From Myxococcota bacterium (lineage in GTDB: Bacteria > Myxococcota_A > UBA9160 > SMWR01): a DNA stretch of 64,000 nt. Position numbers and translations under genes: made by a program. Location: assembly GCA_039030075.1 (NCBI GenBank), contig JBCCEW010000010.1:1-64000 (forward strand). The letters run 5' to 3'. Below, piece after piece: positions 35,618 through 37,460 of the stretch (position 1 is the stretch's first letter; the number at the start of each line of letters is the position of its first letter). The notes below the pieces were generated by a model that worked only from the letters and a program-made list of their open reading frames with translations, was not told the origin of the DNA and searched no databases.

Positions 35618-37075
35618 CTAGACGCGCGCGCTCTGCCTGGGCTCATCGGCGCATTGCGGGTTCGGCACAAGGCCCATCCTGCCCTCGAAGCGCCGCGGCG
35701 GGCCGCAGGGCTCCCCGATCAGCGAATGGGGCGTCGCCTCCACCACGGCCACCGGCAGCCGGTCGCCCGGTGCGAGCTCGAGATCCGCTGGCACTGCGAG
35801 ATTTACCACTCGGTGGTAGGGATCGTGCCCGGTCCACTGGCCTCCGCGCCGACTGGTGCCTTCCACCAGCACCTCGGTCTCGGTGCCGACGCGCGCCCGA
35901 TGGGCTGCCAACGTGAGGCCGCGCTGCAGGGACTGGAGGCGCTCGAGTCGCTCCTGAGCAACCTCGGGGGGCACCGGGTCCGACAGGGTGGCGGCCGCGG
36001 TCTCGGGGCGCGGCGAGTACTTGAACGAGAAGGCGTCGACGAACGCGGACTCTTCGACGACCGCCAGCGTGGCCTCGAAGTCGGCGTCGGTCTCGCCGGG
36101 GAAGCCGACGATGAGATCGGTCGTAAGCACGAGGTCCGAGCGGGTCGCGCGCAGGTCGCGCACGATCGCGCGGTACTCGTCGGCGGTGTAGCGCCGCCGC
36201 ATGCGTTCGAGCACCGCGTCCGATCCGCTCTGAAGCGGGAGGTGCACGTGGGGGCAGAGATTCGGCAGCGTCGCGTGCGCACGGATCAGATCGTCGTCGA
36301 AGAAGCGCGGGTGGGGGCTCGTGTAGCGGATCCGCTCCAGCCCGGGGATCGACGACAAGCGCTCGAGCAAGTGCGTGAAGCTCTCGGTGCCCGCCTGGGG
36401 GGCCTTGCCGCGACGCACGTCGTGGCGCCCGTAGGCGTTGACGGTCTGACCGAGCAGGGTCACCTCGCGCACTCCCTGATCGACGAGGACGCGCACCTCC
36501 GACGCGATCGCCTCCGCCGGCCGACTGATCTCTCGGCCGCGGGTGTTCGGCACCACACAAAACGTGCAGAACATGTCGCAGCCTTCCATCACGGTGACGA
36601 AGGAGCGACCGGGTGTCGTCGGCGCGAGGTCGGGGTGTCGCTCGGGGAGCGCGAAGCGATCCGGCGACCGGTCTTCCTCGGTGGCCGCGCGACGGCCCCC
36701 GGTCTCGGCCGCAGCGACCAGCTCGGGAACCCAGCGCAGGTTGTGGGTTCCGTAGACGAAGTCGATCTGGCGGAAGCGACGCAGCAGGGAGTCGCCCTCT
36801 TGTTGCGCGACGCACCCGGCGATTCCCAGGATGCGGCCGGCCCGCTCTTCCTTCCACGCCCGGAGCCGACCGAGGTCGGTGTAGAGACGGTGCTCCGCCT
36901 TCTCGCGAATCGAACACGTGTTCACGATCAGGACATCCGCCTCATCGGCGTCGTCGCTGGCGCGATAGCCCGCGTGTGTGAGCAGGTTCGCCACTTTCTC
37001 CGAGTCGTGGACGTTCATCTGGCACCCGTAGGTGCGAAGATGGAAGCGGCGCGGCGGGTTCATGGACTGGGTCAT
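35618..37075 (-). CDS. miaB: tRNA-2-methylthio-N6-dimethylallyladenosine synthase
   Basis: 485 residues. Radical-SAM methylthiotransferase modifying A37 of tRNAs that read U-starting codons. N-terminal UPF0004 domain (RTYGCQMNVHDSEKVANLL; three Cys binding the auxiliary cluster: YGCQ, NTCSIR, AGCVAQ); CDMFCTFCVVPNTRGRE is the radical-SAM CxxxCxxC; C-terminal TRAM domain. The ~120 bases before its start hold no other gene. Confidence 0.96.
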   Translation of the reverse strand: MTQSMNPPRRFHLRTYGCQMNVHDSEKVANLLTHAGYRASDDADEADVLIVNTCSIREKAEHRLYTDLGRLRAWKEERAGRILGIAGCVAQQEGDSLLRRFRQIDFVYGTHNLRWVPELVAAAETGGRRAATEEDRSPDRFALPERHPDLAPTTPGRSFVTVMEGCDMFCTFCVVPNTRGREISRPAEAIASEVRVLVDQGVREVTLLGQTVNAYGRHDVRRGKAPQAGTESFTHLLERLSSIPGLERIRYTSPHPRFFDDDLIRAHATLPNLCPHVHLPLQSGSDAVLERMRRRYTADEYRAIVRDLRATRSDLVLTTDLIVGFPGETDADFEATLAVVEESAFVDAFSFKYSPRPETAAATLSDPVPPEVAQERLERLQSLQRGLTLAAHRARVGTETEVLVEGTSRRGGQWTGHDPYHRVVNLAVPADLELAPGDRLPVAVVEATPHSLIGEPCGPPRRFEGRMGLVPNPQCADEPRQSARV

Positions 37076-37278: not shown

Positions 37279-37307
37279 TTGACAACTGCTGTGCTTCCCA
37301 TCACAAT
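37279..37307 (+). promoter_or_regulatory. sigma-70-type promoter ahead of a candidate small RNA
   Basis: TTGACA (37279-37284), 17-base spacer, CACAAT (37302-37307): a perfect -35, four of six -10 bases, optimal spacing, on the plus strand. It lies in a relatively AT-rich patch, unlike the surrounding chromosome, and there is no plus-strand gene after it before the terminator at 37422-37456. Confidence 0.65.
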
Positions 37308-37313
37308 GCCTCC

Positions 37314-37460
37314 CATAGACGGGTACCCCCCGTTTTGTGGAGAGGCGGTGGATCTGGCATTTCTACCCGAAATGTCCAACCTCTCACCCCCCATCATCCA
37401 TCCACCGCCCTCCCCCTCTCGAAACGCCCCGCTGGAACCCCTCCAGCGGGGCGTTTTCTT
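37314..37460 (+). ncRNA. putative structured small RNA of ~147 nt
   Basis: Starts 6-8 bases after the -10 element and ends in a rho-independent terminator. GGAGAGGCGGTGGAT (37339-37353) pairs with ATCCACCGCCCTCC (37400-37413) almost perfectly. Inside it, GGCATTT (37356-37362) and AAATGTC (37370-37376) close a seven-base hairpin with one G-U pair. No ATG/GTG frame with a ribosome site is open in this strand. I cannot match it to a known RNA family; a long stem with an internal loop recalls 6S RNA in outline only. It lies between miaB and the rtcB operon (both leftward). Confidence 0.55.
37422..37456 (+). terminator. rho-independent terminator
   Basis: AAACGCCCCGCTGGA (37422-37436), 5-base loop, TCCAGCGGGGCGTTT (37442-37456), then TTCTTT. 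Fifteen paired bases and a U-rich end on the plus strand: the best terminator of the window. In the minus direction the tail (GTTTCG) is poor, although it may also stop leftward read-through toward rtcB's neighbours. Confidence 0.9.

Follow-up and report, generated by a model that had tools for sequence, protein, structure and literature searches.

A class-wide small RNA family of Myxococcota with an invariant loop complementary to ftsZ and ftsA translation starts

What is encoded at positions 37279-37460 of a Myxococcota contig, beside miaB and rtcB, and what might its product do? The window analysed here is the whole 64,000-nucleotide stretch covering positions 1 to 64,000 of contig JBCCEW010000010.1 (assembly GCA_039030075.1). 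A preliminary description, made from the sequence alone, had interpreted the locus as a structured small RNA, so far unannotated, that is equipped with both a promoter and a terminator; sequence analysis confirmed that this is a real small-RNA gene. The proposed promoter elements are all present (TTGACA at 37279-37284, a 17-nt spacer and CACAAT at 37302-37307) and constitute the only sigma70-like site between positions 36000 and 39000, where shuffled sequences gave a mean of 0.2. Near-consensus promoters of the TTGACN/CATAAT type precede the RNA in 41 of 64 relatives under a strict pattern, with 7 to 104 nt separating the –10 box from the conserved core. The RNA, of about 147 nt, ends in a strong intrinsic terminator, whose stem at 37421-37457 is followed by a U-rich tail and contains 16 pairs by our count rather than the 15 first given. 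The features of the locus are as follows, with the transcription start placed from the –10 box.

37279..37307, + strand: sigma70-type promoter (TTGACA, 17-nt spacer, CACAAT)
37314..37338, + strand: variable 5′ leader, beginning at the predicted transcription start
37339..37353, + strand: outer stem, 5′ arm (GGAG, bulged A, GGCGGUGGAU)
37356..37377, + strand: inner hairpin (GGCAUUUC-UACCC-GAAAUGUCC)
37378..37393, + strand: invariant single-stranded C-rich loop AACCUCUCACCCCCCA, the proposed seed
37400..37413, + strand: outer stem, 3′ arm (AUCCACCGCC, then CUCC)
37421..37457, + strand: intrinsic terminator hairpin, with a U-rich tail to ~37461

The transcript is predicted to fold with an energy of –72.4 kcal/mol, compared with –39.5 ± 3.3 kcal/mol for dinucleotide shuffles (z = –9.9). 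What had been described as a 14-bp outer stem consists of 4 + 10 bp with a single bulged base: GGAG at 37339-37342 pairs with CTCC at 37410-37413, and GGCGGTGGAT at 37344-37353 pairs with ATCCACCGCC at 37400-37409. The inner 7-bp hairpin is present as originally drawn. Between the hairpin and the closing arm lies the loop AACCUCUCACCCCCCA, which is identical in 70 of the 71 sequences of the RNA family and has a predicted unpaired probability of ~0.98-1.0 across its C-rich part.

Comparison with relatives, a check suggested at the outset, revealed the compensatory base changes expected of a functional fold. Across an alignment of 71 sequences, pairing is retained in 97.1% of cells and 16 pairs have changed on both sides, giving a covariation score of 0.260; shuffles scored 0.108 and slid structures no higher than 0.057. 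Most of this covariation lies in the terminator, where both partners have changed in 11 of 13 pairs, and the main stem contributes too, with substitutions of U-A to C-G, G-C to A-U, and A-U to G-C. For the outer stem, 98% of cells are paired in relatives.

The statement that the site has no open plus-strand frame did not hold, as frames of 73, 87, and 295 codons cross it; none is conserved as coding among the relatives compared. A small protein (e.g., MSNLSPP...) would be compatible with an ATG that 67 of 71 sequences have ahead of the loop in one frame. However, this ATG sits inside the paired hairpin, the spacing after the loop differs by non-multiples of three, and the frame continues through the terminator. 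Third-codon positions within the loop vary no more than the others (70 of 71 sequences show no change), which further disfavours coding, and we assign this explanation almost no probability.

The RNA forms a single-copy family. Among 91 genomes of this class of uncultured Myxococcota, probably the UBA9160 group, a covariance model built from 49 sequences found a single strong match in each of 77, including 38 of the 43 with good assemblies, with both orders represented and nearly all full-length members scoring 71-144 bits. A nucleotide search of 61 relatives gave matches in 51, at ~75-94% identity and usually one per genome. Outside the class, no covariance match exceeded 37 bits among 379 genomes of the phylum, and the matches at or below that score were taken as chance, suggesting that the RNA is confined to its Myxococcota class, with no convincing member elsewhere among these genomes. 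An exact 25-base pattern scanned against 84,980 species genomes hit 55 contigs labelled as uncultured Deltaproteobacteria, Myxococcota, Proteobacteria or bacteria, isolate UBA9160 among them. In both orders the RNA is flanked by miaB, pointing away, on one side and by a VWA_CoxE and MoxR-type AAA gene pair (assigned by Pfam) on the other. Thus, of the two neighbours originally noted, miaB is a conserved one; rtcB adjoins the RNA only in the present genome among those examined, which is a local insertion, and the suggested link to rtcB is unsupported.

Could this be a known RNA that has drifted beyond recognition? No Rfam family reached its gathering score at the locus in the window or at the loci of 13 relatives, and a cmscan of 4227 Rfam families, 6S and SRP among them, placed the RNA in none of them and excluded the known families. 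The best sub-threshold match was ar7 (RF02342), an alphaproteobacterial sRNA whose order of stem and terminator resembles that of the present RNA but whose gathering score of 60 bits was not reached, the match scoring 26.1 bits. A diverged 6S RNA or another housekeeping RNA (SRP, Y RNA) would suit a single-copy, class-wide gene with a housekeeping-type promoter and, in this genome, an adjoining rtcB. Yet no match to 6S RNA (RF00013) at or above its gathering score of 46.4 bits was found in the window or the whole genome, and the central bubble of the 6S type is absent. The RNA is also not the only 6S-like gene of its clade, since two genomes that carry it have separate 6S genes at other places (G029:C39:24291-24481, 55 bits; G065:C25:18089-18267, 51.8 bits). 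The SRP RNA (RF00169) of the present genome lies elsewhere, at G000:C2:106735-106834, and a Y RNA linked to rtcB was rejected, as rtcB is not a conserved neighbour. A housekeeping identity is therefore very improbable, and the RNA appears to be a new, previously undescribed family and a candidate for Rfam. In a separate observation, 6S RNA was detected in only a few genomes of the class, in contrast to its frequent occurrence in the rest of the phylum; the 6S RNA of the class has therefore probably diverged strongly.

The invariant loop points to a likely function, a link to ftsZ and ftsA that is new here; the preliminary description had offered no function. Its complement, GGGGGGUGAGAG, directly precedes the ftsZ start codon, and GGGGGGTGAGAG stands immediately before the ATG of ftsZ in many species of the class; the corresponding stretch of the RNA proposed to pair with the target is CACCCCCC. 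When tblastn was used to locate gene starts, G6 was found within 20 nt of the ftsZ start in 57 of 73 class genomes, compared with none of 23 other Myxococcota, and within 20 nt of the ftsA start in 29 of 44 class genomes (1 of 13 in other Myxococcota). At ftsZ starts, the longest match to the loop complement has a mean length of 8.8 nt in the class (n = 73), compared with 4.0 nt in other Myxococcota (n = 23). The rank-test p of 1e-11 overstates independence because the genomes are related; the recurrence in 6-7 families and the lack of such matches outside the class are stronger evidence. Matches of at least 8 nt are found at the ftsZ start in 45 of 73 class genomes and none of the 23 outside, and at the ftsA start in 17 of 44 class genomes and none of 13 other Myxococcota. 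As would be expected of an antisense RNA of the DicF and DinR kind, the RNA thus has an unpaired stretch that complements the ribosome-binding site of ftsZ, and this complementarity is conserved across species.

Genome-wide searches place these two genes apart from the rest. Near-complements of the loop over 16 nt show no genome-wide excess (~63 compared with 58 for reversed-pattern controls), and the best of these sites included the ftsZ and ftsA start codons and one dnaA 5′ UTR. An unbiased screen for GGGGGGTGAG-N0-7-ATG returned 120 sites, distributed over 61 genomes, whereas the reversed pattern gave ~18; the sites were assigned through ftsZ coordinates and fetched proteins. The most recurrent genes were ftsZ, in 25 genomes from 7 families, and ftsA, in 10 genomes, and beyond these no gene was seen recurring across families. 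The present genome has only two such sites, one of which is ftsZ (G000:C2:357833), and among 296 genes sampled from it ftsZ ranks first by duplex energy with the loop, at –30.8 kcal/mol. G6 is found at none of 50 VWA, 41 MoxR, and 111 miaB starts in the class and at 5 of 47 response regulator starts. The present genome also carries a second, weak match to the FtsZ family at G000:C4:77207-77941 (68 bits to TIGR00065).

Part of the match could nevertheless reflect ribosome binding, because GGGGGGUGA is itself a usable Shine–Dalgarno sequence. Taken further, the agreement with ftsZ and ftsA would be a coincidence, in which a G-run Shine–Dalgarno is kept for its own reasons and the RNA acts otherwise, for example by binding a protein through its loop. 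It would accord with the ability of GGGGGUGA to pair with the 16S tail using G-U pairs and with the possibility that some ftsA and ftsZ starts form hairpins of their own (L201, L375), and the strict sequence conservation of the stems plus the loop would also suit a protein ligand. We nonetheless consider a coincidence unlikely: G6 is found near the start of only 12 of 296 genes sampled from the present genome, it is missing at ftsZ in the 23 other Myxococcota, and the complementarity runs on into the spacer. Of 40 ftsZ sites, 30 have the complementary G immediately after GGGGGTGA, in the spacer beyond the Shine–Dalgarno core, as do 10 of 16 ftsA sites.

The correspondence between RNA and target varies among lineages. 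In one order (f12), most ftsZ matches extend to only 6-8 nt and the loop is unchanged. Three genomes (G046, G072, and G073) contain the RNA and have little match at ftsZ; two of them, G046 and G072, match the loop complement over 10 nt at ftsA. G047 (67% complete), in which no RNA was detected, retains a match of 12 nt at ftsZ. Family f9 likewise yielded no RNA, and there the ftsZ match falls to 7 nt in G024 (99% complete) and 4 nt in G031 (74% complete), which is suggestive, from two genomes, of a shorter match where the RNA is missing. Compensatory change between RNA and target is not visible because the loop never varies. Some G-rich starts may also fold on themselves (ftsA in L201 and L215; ftsZ in L373, L375, L376, and L383) by pairing CCUCUC with GAGAGG or CACC with GGUG, which might control these ftsA and ftsZ sites in cis.

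A broader reading is that the RNA is a general regulator of G-rich sites with many mRNA targets, of which ftsZ and ftsA are merely the most conserved, and with a wider role in growth or lifestyle. The conservation of the loop far exceeds the apparent need of two targets, and further candidates include pilQ-type secretins, pilC, the dnaA 5′ UTR, and the nrdJ 3′ UTR: matching starts occur at PilQ-like secretins in six genomes of family f1, at a PilC-like gene, and at ParA/MinD-like ATPases, a 15-nt match lies in one dnaA 5′ UTR, and matches follow nrdJ in two genomes. These extra sites, however, recur within one family or a few genomes only, whereas recurrence over 6-7 families is limited to ftsZ and ftsA, and dnaA starts are generally without G6. 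We regard a regulon of this breadth as possible but doubtful.

In family f1, the secretin starts (L285, L287, L289, L290, L291, and L292) read GGGGGGTGAG(TT)CGATG and are complementary to the loop, suggesting PilQ-like secretins as a lineage-specific extra target. A 15-nt uninterrupted complement of the loop lies ~90 nt upstream of dnaA at L202 (G026:C4:59580) and is mostly absent at other dnaA genes. As a general target dnaA was rejected, with G6 at only 2 of 28 dnaA starts. In two genomes from two families, TGGGGGGTGAGAGGCG is found just past a stop codon on the minus strand near position 1000 (L195 in G006 and L196 in G038); the preceding gene ends in CPNCGATSGCS, an nrdJ-like C-terminus, and TGGGGGGTGAGAGGCG is a possible 3′ UTR target site.

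Weighing these observations, we consider it likely that the RNA is a core-genome antisense regulator that represses ftsZ and ftsA translation by occluding the Shine–Dalgarno sequence, in a manner resembling DicF and DinR. Since the invariant loop matches their ribosome-binding sites, lowered ftsZ and ftsA translation would be the most likely outcome. In the proposed mechanism, a trans-acting RNA of ~147 nt, part of the core genome of the class, would use its rigid 14-bp stem and small hairpin to display the 16-nt single-stranded C-rich loop. Through 7-14 consecutive bases (mostly 9-13), the loop would pair with the ftsZ mRNA across its Shine–Dalgarno region and spacer (GGGGGGUGAGAG-AUG), and with the ftsA mRNA in many species; the pairing would block ribosome binding and limit synthesis of the division ring. 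The gene, its structure and conservation, and the conserved complementarity particular to ftsZ and ftsA can be read from the sequence; transcription, pairing in the cell, repression as the effect, and the timing of the action are inferred. A more ambitious form of this proposal, which we offer only tentatively, is a core class-wide cell-cycle regulator that sets FtsZ and FtsA jointly and in some lineages also acts on the dnaA 5′ UTR and the nrdJ 3′ UTR, the ribosome-binding sites of the targets having evolved to fit an unchanging loop. Antisense repression of ftsZ and ftsA would provide the new RNA family, which could enter Rfam, with a concrete and testable candidate function.

A limited literature search found nothing joining Myxococcota, a small RNA, and ftsZ, and comparable systems come from other lineages. 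EcpR1 of Sinorhizobium and other alpha-rhizobia has a strongly conserved GC-rich loop that pairs with the dnaA and gcrA mRNAs, at sites that overlap the dnaA ribosome-binding site and start codon (PMC4414408). The proposed action of the present RNA is similar in directing a conserved loop against cell-cycle mRNAs; the targets and the lineage are different, and no common Rfam family was found. DinR of Klebsiella pneumoniae represses ftsZ by occupying its ribosome-binding site, the same site proposed here, but is processed from the dinI mRNA, is SOS-controlled, and depends on Hfq (PMC10907235), whereas the present RNA is an independent gene for which no SOS link was seen. DicF, a 53-nt RNA processed from an operon of the E. 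coli Qin prophage, likewise represses ftsZ translation, base-pairing at its ribosome-binding site (PMC5069750). The present RNA is proposed to act at this site too; it is unrelated to DicF by sequence, and the DicF model was absent from the cmscan matches up to E = 10 among all 4227 families. Unlike DicF, it is chromosomal and class-wide, has its own promoter, and would target ftsA as well. RNA control of ftsZ has been described for accessory enterobacterial RNAs, for example one from a prophage and one a by-product of an SOS mRNA. In contrast, the RNA described here is a core-genome component of an entire class and has a near-frozen loop matching the ftsZ and ftsA ribosome-binding sites. If the proposal is true, control of the division ring by RNA would be ancient in this lineage and would form a housekeeping part of its cell division.
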